This document shows, piece after piece, positions 1,687-46,900 of a DNA stretch of 64,000 nucleotides; position 1 is the first letter of the stretch; each line of letters begins with the position of its first letter. The notes under the pieces are model-generated. The model searched no databases and was not told where the DNA came from. It saw nothing but the letters and a program-made list of their open reading frames with translations. The position numbers were made by a program, and so were the translations under genes. Source of the stretch: Pegea sp. RAD2-039 (lineage: Eukaryota > Chordata > Thaliacea > Salpida > Salpidae); the NCBI GenBank assembly GCA_034620365.1, contig JAQGEQ010000363.1, positions 930,001-994,000 on the forward strand. Reading direction: 5' to 3'.

Positions 1687-3929
1687 TCAACGAGTCATTA
1701 AATCTAAATCAGATTGAATTTCTAATATTTTTCTTTTTCTTCTTTGCTTGTTCCATATTAAAGAAGTTATTAAAAGCTGAGAAAACTGCTTGCTCCTTAC
1801 ACTATAGATGATGCAATTGAAAAATGAATTTGACAAGAACATCCTTGTTGCTAGGAACAAATATGTTGTATATGCGTTCATGTGATCTTCTGAATAGCTA
1901 TCTGGTCTTCCTTTTGGATCAGTAGAACTAAAAGTAAAAAAAATAACTTTTCCTCACTCGAAAAACTTGTATTAAAAGTTGTTTATTTTTTATAACCGAT
2001 AAACACCACTTTTAACTTTAGATATATTTTTTACAAGGTGGTAATAAAAACTTTAATTTATAACAGAATCTTTGTCTTACTTTTCTAAGCCAAAGGTCAA
2101 AAAGATTACAGTAACAACAGGAAGCAAGGCCATGGTGAAAGCTCCAACCATAACAGTAAGTGTCTTTGTTATAGATTTTTCTGCTAACTGTCGTTTTTGC
2201 AAATTTAGACTTTTTTTGTTGGACTTCTAATAAATAAAGGTGATACGACTTAAATCGTCTAATTACTATTTTTTTAGCATTTTAAGAAAATAATCTTTAT
2301 TTTAAAGAAAGTATTTTATCATCAGCAATACTCACCAAAGTTAGTTTACTTGGTGTTCTTATTGCTTTAATTTGCCTGAAATTGAACATAAAATTTAGTG
2401 ACGAATAAACATCTTAGAATTTATCAAAGTAGAGATATTATTTACTCATTGTTGATTCTTAGGTGGTTCTTCTTGTCATCCACTGATGGAGCACAATCGG
2501 ATCTTCCCACCTTATTTGAAGAGGGTTTGGTTGGCTTGATGTTTTCATAAATTGAATAAATTTTCGTTGCAAAGTTATTTGAAACTGGACTTTTGTAATT
2601 ATGTTTTGGGTTATGAGTAGATTTTGAAGATTTCTTCCAATCTACTCTTACATAATAGAACAAAGAACCGTTTAAGATCCACATAAATATCAAAGGAGTC
2701 CCAAGACATACTGAGTATACAATAGTAGGAATCATACCATCGGCAAACACTAAACTCAAAGCTACAATCTGATATTTAAACTTAATCAAAGGAAAGATTC
2801 CTAACCCAAACGCATAGCACCAAATAAAACATAAAGCATAGCGGGCTTTTTTCTTGGTTAAATATTTACCTCTCTGAGCTTTAAACGGTCTTGTAACAGA
2901 GAGATAGCGATCTATACTGAAAGTAAATAAGAAATTTAAAGAAGCAGTGAGAGACATAAGAGTGAAGAAACCCATTGTGTTTAAATAACTTTGTTTGAAG
3001 TAATCTTCACTTTGTGGTTTTTCTCCGTCTGTACGAAATGGTAATGGCATAAATGATAGTCTGTAGTTTTGATAAACACTACCAGGTAAAACTATTAGTC
3101 CAACCATAAGGTCAGCCACAGCTAATGAGATTTTGAAATATCCAGGTACGTTGCTCATAGTTTTAGTACGAAATGCTACAAGTAAAACCAGTAGATTGGA
3201 AACTACAATAGAGAATGAAATTAAACAATCAATAGCAATTGATATTTTAGTAGCTTGGCCACATGTTTGACGGAAGCATTGATCTGCTAAGCGAGGGCTT
3301 TTATTGTAGCTTTTCAGACCAGCACCACATGCTACTGGTGTACAGAATGGCCTATAAAGTAAAAACCATTCACAATATTTGACTTTATAAAACGGGTTGG
3401 TAATTTCTTTTTCATCATATATTAAACTGCTTTTATTATACGCTCTACTAAATTCAGTAAAAAAATCACTAATTTCAACACAATACTGATATTCGATATC
3501 CGCTAATGTATAATTTTTGGTTACACTTGCTACTGTTGAAGTTTTAAATGATGTTATATTTATAGTCATAGCTGTAGTCCAGATAGCAACATAATTGTCA
3601 ATACTTTGGTATTCATGCCATGAACATTTTCTTAAAAAATTTTCCTCATCACAAAATTTTGAATATGCTGCTCGGTAATAATCTGTAATAGCAAATGTTC
3701 TTTTTTCACATTCTGTTTTTAACCATTGGCTATTTTCAACAATATCACACAAATGTAATCTCATCAGATAAACTAAAATTGAATTTGTGCCGATTTTAAA
3801 TAAAGGTTTAAATTTGCAGAGCCTTGATAAGTCATTTTGATTCCATGAATTTGCTGGCTGGCTTTTGATAAAGGAAATGTTTGTTGTAGATACAATAAAA
3901 AAAAATATTAAAAAGTTTACTGTTGTCAT
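1687..3929 (-). CDS. class A GPCR with cysteine-rich ectodomain, 3 coding exons
   Basis: Spliced model: complement of 2511-3929, 2081-2226 and 1687-1927, giving 601 residues. The second junction has a strong GTAAGA donor and the phases agree. The first donor (GTGGGA after codon 473) is the likeliest of several. Residues 1-23 look like a signal peptide. Residues 24-228 are an ectodomain with 11 cysteines (38, 61, 74, 93, 102, 150, 186, 196, 201, 218, 223) and several N-glycosylation sequons. TM1 (230-252) carries SNLLVL, TM2 has the LAVAD motif, and TM3 ends in SIDRYLSVTRPF, the DRY motif. TM4 and TM5 follow, then a basic Ser-rich third loop of about 60 residues that holds the intron. TM6 (exon 2) reads FTMALLP where CWxP is usual, and TM7 (exon 3) reads SNSFFNCIIY where NPxxY is usual. 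The usual Cys at the top of TM3 and its ECL2 partner are not visible. Family and ligand are unknown to me. It is a plasma-membrane receptor by architecture. Confidence 0.85.
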
Positions 3930-6369
3930 TTTATTAATAATATCGTGACCAGTAAAAAATTTATCTGCATAAAAATATAACTTATCAAATGTCCTTACCT
4001 ATAACTTGAAAACTATTAAACTCAACTTTGCTTAAACAAGAATAAAAAAAAATTTTTAATCATAACAAACAGTCTTTTTTTATAAATGTCAGCGTAATAC
4101 TTACAGCAGTGTATAAGCTTTACTTTTGATAAGAAACTCAACTAAATAACTTCCTTTTTGTTAAAAATATCTTATAATCTTATAAACTGTTTCTTATTTT
4201 ATTATCTAACAGACTAAATATTATTTTAAAAAAATGTAATTAAGATAAATTATAAAAAGTCATTTACAAGTTTGTAATATAATATAAGTAATTACCAAGC
4301 AAACGAGCCACTTTCTTTGTAAAATCTTTCATCTGTAAAGTTTTAGCTTTAAAACAGTCAGTGATTTTGTACCTTGAACAACCTACATTTATATCACAAC
4401 TTATTCAACATTGTTATAGTTTGTAAAAAACTCTCAAACTCAACCAGTTTTAGTTATATGAATAAAATATTATTGAATATCTATAAAATTTCCAAAAAAA
4501 TAGGGACTTTTATTTAACGCTAAAATTTAAAATATCAAAAGTTAAGTTAAACTGTATTGAATCACATGTTACCAACATGATTGTCTTAAAAAAGATACTT
4601 TGTAATTCTGATAAAAATAGAAGAGTACATATATGAAAACGTGACTCACAAGAACTCAAAGTATAAACTTTTATCAGTTACCAAAGTATGTCATAACATC
4701 TAAACAGTTATGTGTGCAGAGGCTTTTTAGCAAAAATTAAAAAATATTGTGAGCAAATAAAAATTAAAAACAATTTCAAATTTTAAGTTACTTTTAACAA
4801 AAAAATTGTTTATATAAACCAAAGCTATTTAGTTTACTTTGTAATTTCAAGTAATCAGCAATTAATCATCCATGCTTTAATCAAAAATCTATAATCGACA
4901 ATTTACTAATTAATCAATCATAATTATTTTTGAAAATAGTCTGTTTGAATACATACAAATTCAATTACAACAAGACTGTAAATTATAAAACTCTATGCTG
5001 ATGTTTCATGCTGACGTCACTATTCTCTGTTAGCTTCAACATCATACAGACTAAAACCATTGTTTAAAATTACTCAAAAGACTATAATCAAAATAAGTGA
5101 AATGGAGATTATTGAAAGTTCCTAAATTGATTACTCTGATTACAATTTATATTTGTCTACTATATATAGAGAGAGAATACACAAAAAACATTATGTTTCA
5201 CAGTCATCAGCAAAAATTTATGATAAACATCAATAACTTTGTACAAACTTAAACACTTATAACTCTTATCTTGGTTCTTATAAATCCATTTTTGTCTTCT
5301 TACTTGTTTAGTTTGAAATATGATCTAATAAACCATTAAAAACATTTCAGTGAATATCTTTTACTTATAACAGCTTTTGCAAAAAAAAAAAGTATATTAG
5401 CAAAATGTTATTGAAGATCACTAATTCATTTTGTTAACTAAAATTTTTTGATCTATGTAATCTTTATTAAAAATTTTGAGTAAGATTATTAAACTCATAA
5501 CACATAAAAAAGTTATAAGAATCACGTTGTATAACCAGAAAAAAATGTTTAAACAGATTCATTTAAAAATAATTAAGTATTGTGTTGCCTGATAATAACT
5601 ACATATCCTTAAAATTGACTTTTAAATTTACTTAAAGAAATAAATTTTTGCTGACCTGCTACCTTCTAACTCTAATGATAACCTCTGTTAATAAGATTAT
5701 AAACAAAATGTTGACTGTTTTGGTCAAGCAATAAGGCTATTTTAGTTTAGTAAACTTTTACAGCTCTTATTAACAAGATTTTTTTAGCTAAGATATTATA
5801 TGACTTCATAAACTGTTTCTATTATAACAACTTAAAAGCTTTATTTTAAAGAGATTTCAAAAATACTTTCTTGTACTAATAACATGATGTGGTTATACAT
5901 CTATAAGTGTGGATATCAAACATGAATAATTAGTTGCAAAGGTACTACGTAAAACCTGTCTGAACCTTAATGTTGTAATTTGTCATTTATATAAAAACTG
6001 TAAACATTTGTAAATAAAATTTAAACTTGTAAAACAATCTGCACTTGCTTAGTTTTCAAAAGTAAGCTATGACAAAGAAGTTGACAATAATAGTAGCTTG
6101 AAACTAGTTTTACGTTAGATTTAATATAATTTGTAAAGTCATTTCCTTTTTGCACTATGATGAACTTAAATCCTAACTGTAAGCAGGAAGAATTTGGTTT
6201 TGACTTTTGTACTTTATTTAATGTAATGTACTTTATTCTTAATATGTGTCACTCTATTTTAGTGAGTCTCAAACGTTTGATAGTACACGACCGCTGACAA
6301 TAAATCTAAATACTTGATTAAAAGACATTCCACACAATCAGTTGTTTCAAAGCAAATTACTCATATTTC
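3930..6369. other. AT-rich intergenic DNA, GPCR 5' flank
   Basis: This should hold the promoter and 5' UTR of the minus-strand GPCR, but no motif stands out and no coding signal was seen on either strand. There is a short tract of AG/TA repeats near 5160-5175. Confidence 0.5.
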
Positions 6370-8616: not shown

Positions 8617-9565
8617 CTTTATTTACTTATTTTATTTATTTCAATAAATGCGAAGAAGAGCACCTCTCACTAAAATACATTTTCACGAAAAACATCTATT
8701 TAGTCAAAAATATAGAAAGCAAAAGATGTAACACATAGTATTTCAGTAGTCCTCAAAGCATATAACAGTGAACAATTACATGGAATGTTAATAATATAAA
8801 AAAGAGAAAAAAATCACAGTTTAGAAATGAAAATGTTGGCAATATTGTAACGGTTCAACTTCTGCTTGAACAATGCGAGCGACTTCGACATGGCAATGTC
8901 TGATGGCAGCTGGTTCCATGTACTAATTGTACGGTATGAGAAAAAATTTGCTCTGACCAATGTACTAGGTGATATAGGCTTATTAAGGTGTAATATATCT
9001 CGTCTGAGCTGATATAACTTTATGGAAGGACTAATAGAAATGAAATCATCAAACTGAATGTCAATTAAATTGTGGATAATTTAAAAAATAAGAATTAAGT
9101 TGTATTTAATCCGTCGGATTTCCAAAGTATCTAAATTGAAGAGACTGAGACGATGTTTATAACTATCATATTTAATATTAAGTTTCCTACATACTAATCT
9201 CGTAAATGTGGCCTGAACAGATTCGATTTTTTTGATATCACTAACTTGATATGGCATCCATGCACTAACATTGTATTAGGAATTGGACTTACGTACAATT
9301 TGAAAAGATTGATAAGAAACCATGGGTCCTGAGAATTAAAGGTCTTTATAATAAGGAAGACAAGGTTGATTGATTTTCCAAAAATTTTGGAAACATAATT
9401 GCGCCATTTAAAGTCAGATGATAGAGTAATGCCAAGGTCTAGGACCGAAGATACTCGTTGAACAATACATCTATTGATGGAGTATTTGTTATTTATGTAT
9501 TGGTGTACAGCTGGTTTACGATAAAAAGTTATAAGTTCAGACTTTGTGGACTGAATTCTGAGCTG

Positions 9566-10400
9566 CTAATTCGTAGACAGATTTTCTACAGTGTGTAGTG
9601 CAGTTTGAAGTTTTGAAGGATTACAAGATAATAGCTTGATATCATCTGCATACACAAACACTCTGACATCATCTACTGCTACTAATCTTCTGATGAGGTC
9701 TTTGATGAAAATTAAAAAGAGAAGAGGACCCAGAACAGAACCCTGCGGAACACCACTAGTGATTTGACTAGAAGTAGATAAAAATCTTTCTACACGATTT
9801 TGTTGGGTTCTACCTGATAGGTAATCTTCAATCCACTGTAAGATAAAGCTGTTGATTTTTAAGTTTTTCAATACAGTAACGAGCTTAGTGTGTGGGACAG
9901 AATGAAGCGCTTTATCAAAATCGAGATATATGATGTCACAGGGAGTATTACTTTCGTAACGGGCTGTAAGCTCATTAAGAAAAGTGAGATGTTGAGGCAG
10001 GGAAGATCTCCGTTTCACAAAGCCATGCTGGACATCAGATATTAGATGGTGCTCCATTAAATAACTGGTCATATGATTATATAGGATATGTTCTTCAGTT
10101 CTGCAGATAACTGAAGTCAGTGAAACTGGTCTGTAGTTTAGTGCAGTGTTTCTGGGACCCTTTTTATGAATATGAGTAATGATAGCTTTCTTCCAAATTT
10201 GTGGAGCTCTTCCTCGCCTCAGAGTCATGTTAAAGAAAAGCGATAAAGGTAGTGATAAAGAGGAAGTAGTTTTTCGTAAAAACAAAGCTGGGATCTGATA
10301 TTGAAAAATGATGATTTTAAAGGAGAAATAGCCTTAGATACCATATCGACCGTTATGTTAAGATCTATCATCTCAGAGACAAATCTACAAAATCAAGGCT
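9566..10400 (-). pseudogene. reverse transcriptase domain of LINE A ORF2
   Basis: The longest open stretch is 9566-10285 (239 residues). It carries non-LTR reverse transcriptase blocks in order: WKKAIITHIHKKG and NYRPVSLTSV (residues 31-60), DIIYLDFDKALHSVPH (117-132; Ala replaces the usual Phe), TSGVPQGSVLGPLLF (176-190) and VYADDIKLL with the YADD catalytic box at 212-215. Another frame upstream (to about 10400) supplies the preceding LK-rich linker, and frames downstream of 9566 continue the thumb region, so at least two frameshifts interrupt it. ORF2 is therefore non-functional although the catalytic box survives. Confidence 0.8.
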
Positions 10401-16003: not shown

Positions 16004-17034
16004 TTTTTGACCGGGCACGGCCGTTCTCGGCTGAAGCAGACCAAAAAATGTGAGAAAACTGAAGGTAAACAATGTATTTTTTGGAACTTCTTACCTTGGA
16101 CATTAGGTCAAAGACTTCTTTTTTCATTTAAAATGTAGTCATGTCGCAAAAAAATAATTGGATCAATAAAAATTAATAATAATTAAACATTTATTCAAAT
16201 ATAATATCGATTTATTTAAAGAGATATGTTTTTTCTATATTTTTAATTTATTTTGGTCAATATTTCAAATGGTTTATATATATATTTGGTAATTATTTTA
16301 TATAAAAATAATCATAATTACAAAATTTTGTCTATTTTTTGGATAAGTAATTTTTTAATCTTTTATTGTTGCTATGATTTTTTAAAAGCTTACGATTTTC
16401 TAATCATTTTCATTTTGAAAAATTTATGTATATTTCTTTTACTATTATTAATCATAGTATGAACTTGTGTAAATTTTTTAAATATTTTGTTTCAGTTTAA
16501 GTTATCTAAAAATTGTAAAACTGTTTTTTAAAGTAAGTGTTTATTTAGGTTAATTTACAAATTTTTTTAATCTATTGGATGATATAATATTCTAAATATG
16601 TTTCAGTTGCTTTTAATAGTTTAACTTTTCAAAAGCACACAACTTTTTTAGGTTAACTAAATATATTGTGAATATTTTACTATATAAGGCTTTAAAATAG
16701 TATCTCTGAAGATGTTAATGATGAAGACAGTTGTTTTAAAGCAATTTTTATTGATAAAATTTTACTGTTAAATGTTATTAGCTAAATTTTGAATTATTTT
16801 CCATTAATTGTAAGTGTAATATAAAATTTTCCTGGTTTTTGTAAACCATTCTGAGTAATTTCTGATTACAAATGTTATCGCTTATATAGGAGGAAACGTT
16901 AGGTTGTCTGTTTTAGCTTCAACTTCTTAGCTTGGTATAAAGATTCTTGTATTACTTTTTATGTGCAACAATATTATGAAATTACAGAACTGTTTTTATT
17001 ATTAGAAAGTTTTAAGTAAAATATTTCAAAAACT
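16004..17034. other. AT-rich DNA upstream of the kinase gene
   Basis: The first 40 bp (GGGCACGGCCG) may still belong to the SINE. The rest is strongly AT-rich with no coding signal. A TTTGCAG at 17034-17040, 24 bp before the kinase ATG, could be a 3' splice or trans-splice acceptor for its leader. Confidence 0.4.
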
Positions 17035-17064
17035 TTGCAGTTTAACATCAACAACAAGATTACC

Positions 17065-17991
17065 ATGTTTGCTATAAAAAGAAGAAGAATGCAACAACCC
17101 CGTTTCTCTATCGAGACTCTAATAAAAAATGGAAGTTTTACGAAGGTGTACAGTGGAACAGATCATTTTCACAACCAGCGTGTAGCAATAAAAATTGAGA
17201 TATTAAAAACAAAGGAGTCAGAATCTCTGATAATTTTTGAAAATGAAAACTATAAACCTTTAAGGAATATCTACGGCATAAGTAAGGTCATTAGCCTGAC
17301 ACAGTTTAATGGATATCGAGCAATGGTTTTGGACTATATTGGCTTTTCTTTGAAAGATCTTTTTCGTGAATGTGGGAATACTTTTTCTCTCAAAACAGTT
17401 TTATTAATCTTAGATCAGCTCCTTTGTATTTTGGAAGACATTCATGAAAGAGGATATATTCACGGTAATATAAAACCAGCAAATTTTTTATTTGATGCTT
17501 ATTCAAGACAATTTTATATCATCGATTTCAGATTGATGAAAAAATTTCGAGGTTTTCGTCCGTTAGATGATTGTAGAACAGAACTCTCAGAAAATTATTG
17601 TTATGCTTCACTAAACTCGGCCATGAAGTACGAATCAAGTCGTAGAGATGATATGGAGTCTCTTGGTTACATGGTTATTTATTTGCTTACTTCATCTCTT
17701 CCTTGGATGATCTTTAAGAACTTAGAGCGAGAGATGCGTTGTCGTAGAACTATTGAAATGAAGCAGAAGACATCTTTAGAGGAGTTATGTAAAGGAGCAC
17801 CCAGTGAATTTTTAGTATTTTTACAAAGCTGTCGGCGAATGAGATTTGAATCTAAACCAAAATATCGACAAATAATTTGCAGTTTTCGTAAACTTGCAAT
17901 GAAAAACAAGATTGCATACGACTTCTGTTTTGATTGGATGAAGCCAAAAATAGAAAAAAAATCTTCCTCAAACGGACAAAGCTGGTTGTAA
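17065..17991 (+). CDS. casein kinase 1-like protein, predicted pseudokinase
   Basis: An intronless gene of 308 codons. I chose the ATG at 17065 because the frame upstream of it has no ATG before a stop. The CK1 fold is clear: a modified glycine loop (NGSFTKVYSG, residues 22-31), VAIK with the ATP-binding Lys43, and the CK1-specific SRRDDMESLGY (192-202) and SLPW (211-214). The catalytic loop reads HGNIKPAN (133-140) where CK1 has HRDIKPDN, so both the Arg and the catalytic Asp are replaced. The metal-binding DFG reads DFR (154-156). Lys43 and Asp154 remain, so nucleotide binding is possible but phosphotransfer is unlikely. Length fits a CK1 kinase domain with almost no tail, ending in a short Lys/Ser-rich stretch. 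An AATAAA overlaps the stop codon (17990-17995). No intron suggests origin by retrocopy or a fast-evolving CK1 side branch; the long intact frame argues it is under selection. Confidence 0.85.
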   Translation: MFAIKRRRMQQPRFSIETLIKNGSFTKVYSGTDHFHNQRVAIKIEILKTKESESLIIFENENYKPLRNIYGISKVISLTQFNGYRAMVLDYIGFSLKDLFRECGNTFSLKTVLLILDQLLCILEDIHERGYIHGNIKPANFLFDAYSRQFYIIDFRLMKKFRGFRPLDDCRTELSENYCYASLNSAMKYESSRRDDMESLGYMVIYLLTSSLPWMIFKNLEREMRCRRTIEMKQKTSLEELCKGAPSEFLVFLQSCRRMRFESKPKYRQIICSFRKLAMKNKIAYDFCFDWMKPKIEKKSSSNGQSWL

Positions 17992-43900: not shown

Positions 43901-46900
43901 GGAATGTCAAAAGACGGTGTGTCCACCATTTTGTTTTTTTGTCAAGCCGCATAGTTTAAAACAGTTAGAATTAAGCTGGTTATTAAAATAAACAAACTTT
44001 ATTTTTTACACTACAAAACGTCAAAAGGTATTTTTATACTTGACTTTTACTGAACTCACACAGATAGCTAAATCTGCCCAGAGGCTTTTTTCAAATAAAA
44101 ACACAATTTGTAAGACGACATAAAAAAACAAAATGGTTATCTTTTGCAACTTATAATTTGTTATTATAAATCTTTAATAAAGTGTTTAGCTCGGTGTAAG
44201 ATTTGTTTTAATGAAGCCAAAAAATTGTTGTTGTTACAGAGATTAAAACAATAAAGAGTTTTTAAGAACTTAATAATTGTTTCTCAAGTTTTAAAACTAT
44301 TGTAAAAATCAAGATATAACTGTCAGGGTTGATTAAGTTTATATTAAGTTATATCGCTTGCTATCTAAAATAAAGTATAAAGTTTGTTGTCACTCTATGC
44401 TTGTTAAAGTCATTCATCTGTTATTGTTTGTTTTATCATGAACAATTTTCCGTTTATTATTATGACTTTGCAAACAACTTAAATTTTCGAGAACTTCAAA
44501 CTTATTTTATCTATACATTATTGAATTTCTTCCTTCTTCAATTAATCATTGGTTCCTAATAATTATTGACAGCCAGAAACAAACTTCATGCCCTGCTGGT
44601 TTTACATAGCAACGACTCGATTTGATAAGCTTATCAGAGAATGGTTAACCACAAGCTTTCATAAATGAAAAACACTTTAAATAGGTTACCAGGCTACAAG
44701 AAAAACTGAAATCAAATCACATATCGCAGCACTTGTGTTTAAACATTTACTGCTGTCCAGATTTGTCATAGTTGATGCTTGAAATACACTCTTAAGTCTT
44801 ACAAGTCTTGAAGATTTTGTTTAAATTTATAAACTTGACTCTTTAGTCTGTAAAAAATCTAAAGCTAACTTTGCTAAGTTGCTTAAGAGTTTGCTATTTA
44901 TAGGAAACAGGTTACAGCTCTTAAATTTCATTTTTTATTTATGCTTTTTTTTAAAGAATCAAGTTTCAATTGATCTTTTAAATTCAAAGCCAAGCATCTC
45001 AGCTAGCCAATAGTATACAGTGATTAATCATTTCAAGAAGCCATGATTGCATAAACTCTGAAAATTAAACTTAATTAAAATGCTAATCAAGTTGCTAACC
45101 ATAAAAACATTTTTTCTGGTATTATTCTCAACATAATTCCTACTTCAAACTATTTTCAAAAGATTTTTTGCAAAATAGTTTATTAAAGTTTTACAAAAGA
45201 CATGATTTGTATGTTTTGCAGCCGTTAAATATGGAAGAATTCCAAAAACTCAAAAAGCCAGATTAATTGCTGAAAGATTGGCGATGAAAATGAGGTTTGA
45301 AAAACTTGTTTGCATACTTTGACGCTTAACAAAAAAATCTTTGTTTCACCATAAGTTATCGGAATTTTTATCAAATTATCTTTTAGATTGACTAATCTGA
45401 TAAAAATTTTATGATAGTATTTTTAATTTTTTACTTATTAAATTTCTAGTTTTATCATCATTTGCTCAAATGGTTTCAAACTAATCATCAAATAAACTAT
45501 TAACTTAAAGCAAACAGTATATAATCAAGCACTGAAATAGTTTCTTAAAATGCCTGTGTAAAACAACGCCTTGTAAATATATATTGATATAAAATTAATT
45601 GTATTAAATCGAAACTAAAGTTTTAATTTTGTAACTCCAACTATATATTTATTCAGGTGACTTGATAACCTAAATAAGTTAATATCATATGTATCGTTTA
45701 TTTAGATTTTATTCAAAACTTTTTATTTCAAATTAAACAAATAATAAAAAAATGTAAACATGAATTTCTTGATTTACTTTCATAGATTAAATCAGCATGA
45801 ACGTACCTACCTCCAGACAGAAGAAATATCAACTGGGTTTCCACAAGAATATAACGAAAATGAAAAAACCTCCACTTCAAATCAAATAACATCAAATTCA
45901 TCTGTAGAGATGGATATGTATTCAACAAGCGTTGATACATCCAACTGGCGCTGGCCCAATCATCTAAACGCAGACGGTGTCCACCCCTTATCTCAAATGC
46001 GAAAGATGGTTGATGAAAATTATGAACCACGAAATTTGTCCAATTCTACAGATGAAACAGCGCCCAAAGAAGCCTTTGCTGGCTGGAAAAATAGTGATAC
46101 AGAAAAGCGACTAGATAGCAGACAAAGCCAATTGGCTACAGATGAAGAACCGTTATGCTTGACAAAATATTCCAACGTTCCATCATCACATGTTCCTGAA
46201 AGCTTGAAGTCTTCGGATTTAATCAGCTTTCAACCTTACAGAAGAAATGAAGGCTCTAGTAGTGATAAAGAAGCTAGAAATCATGATCAAATCTTCTCTA
46301 CTGACTCAGTAAATAGAAATGATCTCAAGCAATCTAGGCAATGCTTCCAGCCGTGGCTTCCTGGTACTGCCCCCATCTCTAGATCTTCCCGTACCTCTAT
46401 TTCTTATTCTTCAAATCTTTTACACCGATTTCGAAACGTTAACTCAATTTTTGGCAACAAGCGTTCAAAAAATCAAGTCTTTCTTCAACACATGCCTGCT
46501 TTTCCAGTTCATCATTTATCACCTTACTCTGCAAGCACAGATTATTCTAACCATTCATCTCAATCTTCATCAACGCCATCTGATCCCATCAAAGAATCAG
46601 AAGATACTGAGCCTACCCCAACTATTGATTCTATTCAACATCGACCCAAGTCATCATCTTCTTATGACAGCGGATGTCCTGATGCTGTTAATGGCAACGA
46701 CGGGTCAATGACGTCAAAAAGAAAGATCAGCGGTGATGCAGAACAGCCTGAGGATCTTTCAGTTTCTTCTGAGCAAAGTCTGCTTCAATCAAAGAAGAGA
46801 ATGACGGTAAGTCAATTGCTAATATCTGCAGATAACGTTTTGTAAATATTTTCATAACTTAATTTGAAGTTTGTCATTTTAGCTCTTTGATAGTCTTGCC

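Follow-up and report, generated by a model that had tools for sequence, protein, structure and literature searches.

The gene on the minus strand of the window (the 64,000-nucleotide stretch of Pegea sp. RAD2-039 DNA analysed here) is predicted from its sequence to encode a class A (rhodopsin-like) G protein-coupled receptor (GPCR) that carries a cysteine-rich outer head ahead of its transmembrane domain. Homology searches place it in an expanded family of such headed receptors, with at least 11 members in this genome.

The gene (1687-3929, minus strand) looks complete and specifies a 636-residue product. It comprises four coding exons separated by three GT-AG introns: two interrupt intracellular loop 3, the third falls between TM6 and TM7, and the head and the seven-transmembrane (7TM) region are not separated by any. 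The open frame that holds exon 1 extends over 518 codons from stop to stop (2442-3998, minus strand), with a methionine codon at 3929. An earlier, sequence-only reading of this DNA had proposed a 601-residue product, which is 35 codons shorter and which, judged by eye, results from the use of a phase-0 donor (AAG|GTGGGA, 2511/2510) together with the skipping of the 40-nt exon. The two models differ only in intracellular loop 3, and therefore neither of them restores the canonical motifs discussed below. The features of the gene are collected in Table 1.

Table 1. Features of the receptor gene in window coordinates (splice model 3929-2446, 2375-2336, 2226-2081, 1927-1687; sites picked by eye)
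Feature	Positions	Strand	Basis
Coding exon 1: signal peptide, ectodomain, TM1-TM5, most of intracellular loop 3	2446..3929	-	open frame, splice model, 7tm_1 5.6e-21
Predicted signal peptide, residues 1-23	3861..3929	-	hydropathy peak 3-21; boundary by eye
Cys-rich ectodomain (head), residues 24-224, 11 Cys	3258..3860	-	homologous to heads of 10 paralogues
DRY (D3.49-R3.50-Y3.51), end of TM3	2904..2912	-	motif table
40-nt mini-exon, intracellular loop 3; may be skipped with donor 2510	2336..2375	-	GT-AG sites
Coding exon 3: end of loop 3 and TM6	2081..2226	-	splice model, Pfam alignment
ALLP at 6.47-6.50, replacing CWxP	2119..2130	-	splice model, motif table
Coding exon 4: ECL3, TM7, C-terminal tail, stop	1687..1927	-	splice model, Pfam alignment
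NCIIY at 7.49-7.53, replacing NPxxY	1804..1818	-	splice model, motif table

Elsewhere in the window, whose G+C content is about 27%, two adjacent open frames occupy positions 9194-10333 (minus strand). The frame at 9566-10333 encodes a reverse transcriptase (RVT_1, 1.8e-26) while 9194-9565 gave no Pfam match, and the pair is probably the remnant of a non-LTR element. On the plus strand, a 323-residue open frame at 17020-17991 encodes a protein kinase (Pkinase, 3.4e-20), and a 365-residue open frame at 45748-46845 is serine-rich by eye and matched nothing in Pfam at E up to 1. In the assembly as a whole, cytochrome oxidase 1 was not found, and neither a rotifer spliced-leader pattern nor two Brachionus manjavacas primers (PMC2746195) gave a match, which makes an origin in the B. 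plicatilis complex unlikely; the best PDB matches of a GAPDH (L055) are vertebrate entries.

The joined product of the receptor gene matches the Pfam 7tm_1 model with 93 bits (cut-off 30.5) over profile positions 2-260 of 260. A comparison of the spliced product with GPCR families had been proposed by the sequence-only reading, and it is the 636-residue form that fits the whole model; 7tm_1 is moreover the sole Pfam match of this protein at E up to 1. Since exon 1 alone scores 75.6 bits over profile positions 2-126, exons 3 and 4 contribute to the match. The hydropathy profile displays a signal peptide and six transmembrane peaks; TM7 falls under the 1.25 cut-off, yet lies inside the Pfam alignment. 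The core anchors D2.50, R3.50, W4.50, P5.50, P6.50, N7.49 and Y7.53 are present in the window gene and throughout the family (11/11). The departures from the class A pattern that had been described from the sequence all hold. About 205 extracellular residues with 11 cysteines had been placed before TM1, and I count about 200 residues and 11 cysteines (residues 38, 61, 74, 93, 102, 150, 186, 196, 201, 218 and 223), none of them in the signal peptide. The cysteines of the TM3/ECL2 disulfide are missing, position 3.25 being Leu and ECL2 being devoid of Cys. The motif table likewise bears out the replacement of CWxP by ALLP, which removes the toggle Trp, that of NPxxY by NCIIY, and the retention of DRY. 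The C3.25-ECL2 disulfide, W6.48 and P7.50 are usual in class A receptors and do not define the class, so that class A membership rests on the Pfam score.

A sequence search of the PDB returned beta-adrenergic and cannabinoid receptors at the top of the best 60 of 215 matches, mostly through the TM part. Such matches are what one would expect of an ordinary, if divergent, receptor for a peptide or amine that belongs to a known family and whose N-terminus has grown into a spacer without a binding role. I regard this explanation as quite unlikely. Within the same best 60 of 215 matches there is no clear orthologue among solved receptors, the top score being 45.6 bits, to the beta-1 adrenergic receptor. 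Furthermore, amine receptors feature an Asp at 3.32, and the window gene has a Thr there. Two further observations bear on this explanation, one on each side, and are given below with the head cysteines and the tree.

Heads and the TM half served as separate queries against the genome from which the window comes (105.7 Mb in 387 contigs). The head of the window gene gave eight non-self matches, each of them weak (E 0.003-0.07), and all eight lie less than 1 kb 5' of a 7tm_1 match. Two paralogue heads used as queries added C209, C103 and C8, each again near a 7tm_1 match. With the first of these queries all ten non-self matches belong to the family; with the second, 13 of the 16 rows do (E up to 0.02, two rows being one broken gene), and the other three (C15, C63 and C91) are weaker. 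The seven best of the 11 non-self matches to the TM half are C12, C103, both C58 genes, two C21 genes and C209, and the three C23 genes are absent among these 11. The head-only and TM-only queries hence reach largely the same loci. In addition, the window head obtains 33.1 bits with a profile of nine paralogue heads that does not include the window gene, and the highest score among 2000 shuffled versions of this head is 12.2 bits. Both the head and the 7TM region of the window gene are homologous to those of the paralogues, at an identity of only 21-25% to any of the ten in either half.

Including the window gene, the family has at least 11 members, that is, ten paralogues, with frames open in the exons examined (for C23_168 and C23_196, those that follow the signal exon), plus one frame-broken copy. 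These counts are lower bounds, because the search scores only the best candidates. Five of the 11 genes sit in two clusters. A phase-2 intron of 77-266 nt can join head and 7TM region just before TM1 in all ten paralogues, five of these sites having been chosen with the shared position in mind. A relative of the C23 headed receptors at C8:1577000-1584500 (L054) is frame-broken, with stops within its head and TM pieces.

This broken relative, and the fact that the window gene is without the head/7TM intron that the others have, could be taken to mean that the gene is decaying or mis-joined, the head being a separate secreted protein and the receptor a pseudogene. That is very improbable. The head and TM1-TM5 of the window gene lie within one open 518-codon exon, so that no joining is needed; in the ten paralogues, the intron can link the two parts at the same place; and the spliced product spans the whole 7tm_1 model.

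Beyond this genome, pattern scans for relatives of the head gave 106 matches in GTDB prokaryote genomes and 123 in IMG/VR contigs, none of which is a relative by tblastn. This headed receptor family was not found in the literature covered, which consisted of titles and the openings of abstracts and took in a minority of the subscription journals. Restriction of the family to one lineage is likely.

In addition to the core anchors, S3.39, D3.49, F6.44 and N7.45 are conserved in all 11 members, and N1.50 is found in nine. Not one of the 11 has C3.25, W6.48 or P7.50, and the "altered switches" are therefore a family trait. Position 3.51 is Tyr in the window gene only (Leu in eight members, Phe in two), and the stretch from TM2 to position 3.25 spans 34-54 residues without a Cys. 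The resulting family patterns are DR[Y/L/F], F...[L/I/V/F].P and N[C/F/I/Y]..Y. As a control, the same motifs were read by eye at 21 loci of other GPCRs, which are mostly high-scoring and so biased towards canonical sequences; L056 and L057 were treated apart, and L059 repeats L005. At readable sites, C3.25 was present in 8/8, W6.48 in 11/12 (Tyr in L070) and P7.50 in 10/11 (Phe in L069). GPCRs outside the family being mostly canonical, the drift of the motifs is not genome-wide. L069 (C44:813500-819500) combines, on neighbouring ORFs, CWTP with NFILY in TM7, so that P7.50 may be lost without W6.48. Of the two loci treated apart, both outside the headed set, C75 (L056, C75:230500-237000) and C17 (L057, C17:149500-156000) are without P7.50, and C17 is also without W6.48.

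The sequence-only reading had left the choice between an unusual activation mechanism and a lineage-specific receptor family with a folded ligand-binding head. The second part is supported as regards a receptor family and a folded head. The first is not supported, the same three residues being missing in 11/11 members. Loss of W6.48 and P7.50 has a precedent in PROF1, a group of flatworm orphan rhodopsins, and therefore does not by itself constitute evidence for a new activation mechanism.

In the head, C74, C93, C102 and C150 are Cys in all 11 members, whereas C196, C201, C218 and C223 are Cys in 9/11, 6/11, 6/11 and 9/11, respectively, and nine members have a Cys just before TM1. A family Cys lies three columns away from C61, the partner of C38 is plausible but unsure (three C23 rows have signal-peptide or intron residues in that column), and C186 has no partner. 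A mere spacer would hardly keep four cysteines in 11/11 members at 21-25% identity to the window protein, which argues against the ordinary receptor with a grown N-terminus considered above. Structure prediction of the ectodomain, also proposed by the sequence-only reading, was informative for a paralogue head: a helical core was predicted with fair confidence, together with two short strands at the N-terminus (pLDDT 69.8 on average, and 79-95 in the blocks covering residues 61-150). The model of the window's own head was poor (pLDDT 48), and its fold is for this reason deduced from the paralogue. The head is thus predicted to have a folded, helical, Cys-rich core.

A Pfam scan of ten heads at E up to 1 yielded no convincing domain and no Fz. 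Among solved structures (PDB), no sequence match to the head was found and no confident fold match to the partial paralogue model, which does not imply that the fold is new. Weak Pfam matches to single heads were taken as chance: Tox-PLDMTX (E 0.0022) in one of the ten, and C4_MG1, C5_CUB, AJAP1, R1_ABCA1 and SET at E 0.11 or weaker. The stretch near C38-C61 of the window head bears what we take to be a resemblance to a Frizzled CRD. A Frizzled-type head was nevertheless set aside, there being no Pfam Fz match and no such PDB chain listed for the partial paralogue model.

The closest TM relative of the window gene is C75, with 34% identity and joined to it at 88/85 support. C75 has only a short Cys-rich N-terminus, in which the spacing of the cysteines somewhat recalls the last segment of the window head. 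A nearest relative that is short at its N-terminus is in keeping with the ordinary receptor with an extended N-terminus. It also means that the head and the TM region may have had different histories. In the tree, the 13 sequences formed by the 11 headed members, C75 and C17 are separated from the controls at 82/89 support, with several long branches and with only 38% of columns filled for L056. Within these 13, the 11 headed members do not form one group apart from C75 and C17 (moderate support), and in the history of the wider group heads may have been acquired or lost.

The tandem genes C58_98 and C58_92 share a 566-bp tract that is 95.4% identical and covers about 85% of the head. It starts 12 nt upstream of the start codon and ends at codon 185 of the 216-codon head exon. 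In blocks of 20 codons, identity is 83-98% up to codon 180 and 35-75% thereafter, and 3' of the tract it is 65% over the best stretch. The two proteins are 81% identical in the head and 43% in the 7TM region, with synonymous divergences of 0.20 and 1.5, respectively. A third gene, C21_2239, has its 5' flank in common with C58_92 and its body in common with C58_98. On the strength of these shared tracts, heads have most likely been moved between receptor bodies by recombination or conversion. This exchange offers the best indication that the head forms a functional module; in the searches of this genome, the head was found in no other kind of protein. As to selection, dN is lower than dS for C58_98/C58_92, for C21_2239/C58_92 and for the C12/C21_2239 head (ratios of 0.20-0.73), three of these five values being obtained at a dS of 1.4-2.4, near saturation. 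One recent pair of heads gave a dN/dS of 1.03 and the C23 TM pairs gave 0.89-1.56, in both cases on few changes, and therefore constraint is not uniform. A bolder possibility, which I put forward tentatively, is that the family is a recombining repertoire in which gene conversion places a new, Cys-stapled helical head on various 7TM bodies and thereby mixes recognition specificity and signalling. It is conceivable, at much the same level of doubt, that such mixing would suit a system for the recognition of a mate, food or self cue.

The reading that I consider probable is the following: the window gene would encode a lineage-specific orphan class A receptor of an expanded family, in which a Cys-rich, mainly helical head captures the ligand. 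In this scheme, disulfides would staple the head, which would join TM1 through a Cys-rich juxtamembrane stretch and would capture its ligand (a peptide, a protein or another large or polar cue) outside the membrane. The head would then present the ligand to the loops, or press on them, the long ECL1 and the extracellular mouth being the parts acted upon. The signal would be routed through F6.44/P6.50 and N7.49/Y7.53, without the Trp toggle, and the DR motif would couple to the G protein. A role in chemosensory or peptide recognition is likely, because the family is expanded and partly clustered and because its heads seem to recombine.

Alternatively, the protein could be a headed decoy, scavenger or adhesion receptor devoid of G-protein signalling, whose switch is frozen by the loss of C3.25, W6.48 and P7.50 and whose head only captures or presents the ligand. 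Three activation-linked positions are indeed missing in 11/11 members, and the head is the part that has been exchanged nearly intact. Yet D3.49-R3.50, F6.44, P6.50, N7.49 and Y7.53, which a decoy would hardly need, are kept in all 11, and the similarly drifted PROF1 receptors are described as transcribed (RT-PCR, PMC3261222). A decoy therefore seems unlikely, if less so than an ordinary receptor with a spacer. Should the signalling receptor with a ligand-capturing head be correct, a class A family would tolerate an otherwise conserved core in which the TM3-ECL2 disulfide, the toggle Trp and the proline of TM7 are all missing, and would serve as a natural experiment on the extent to which these switches are needed. 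A head without a detected Pfam or solved-structure relative, swapped among bodies, would likewise offer a clear example of modular ligand recognition by rhodopsin-type receptors.

Among known systems, class A types with a large ectodomain include the LDLa/LRR receptors (relaxin, glycoprotein-hormone and GRL101 receptors). The headed receptors would resemble them in having a folded head outside a rhodopsin-type 7TM region, but no LDLa or LRR match was found in the ten heads scanned or in the window protein. This genome also has at least one LDLa-7TM receptor: the open frame at C47:434646-437639 (L060:647-3640) carries six LDLa repeats ahead of a 7tm_1 domain in which CWLP and NPIIY are present. 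Further ORFs, about 900-1020 residues long and containing 7tm_1 fragments, occur on C81, C39, C1, C265, C38, C12 and C179, and their length alone would suggest a multi-copy family of long single-exon receptors. Cannabinoid and lysophospholipid receptors are also without the TM3-ECL2 disulfide, and they retain both W6.48 and NPxxY and are not known to carry a Cys-rich head. The absence of C3.25 is thus a point in common, and cannabinoid receptor 1 ranks with the better matches in the PDB (36-39 bits), whereas adrenergic matches are at least as strong; both statements refer to the best 60 of 215 matches. The two paralogue 7TM exons scanned match Srw or Srx, chemoreceptor-like rhodopsins of nematodes (PF10324, PF10328), at E 1e-7 to 4e-7, but 7tm_1 scores far better in both exons and is alone in matching the window protein at E up to 1.

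PROF1 provides a further comparison. These lineage-expanded, motif-drifted orphan rhodopsins (PMC3261222; PMC6114109) display, in groups I and II, the patterns DR[L/V], F...[S/A/T].P and NF..Y (PMC3261222, Table 3). Their genes are described as intronless (PMC3261222), in contrast to the four coding exons and the head of about 200 residues found here, and the main text of that paper nowhere uses the word "cysteine". Like the window family, PROF1 consists of lineage-expanded orphans in which the TM6 Trp is gone and the TM7 motif has drifted, and the paralogues resemble PROF1 group II in DRL and NF..Y, with L/I/V/F at 6.48 where PROF1 has T/S/A.
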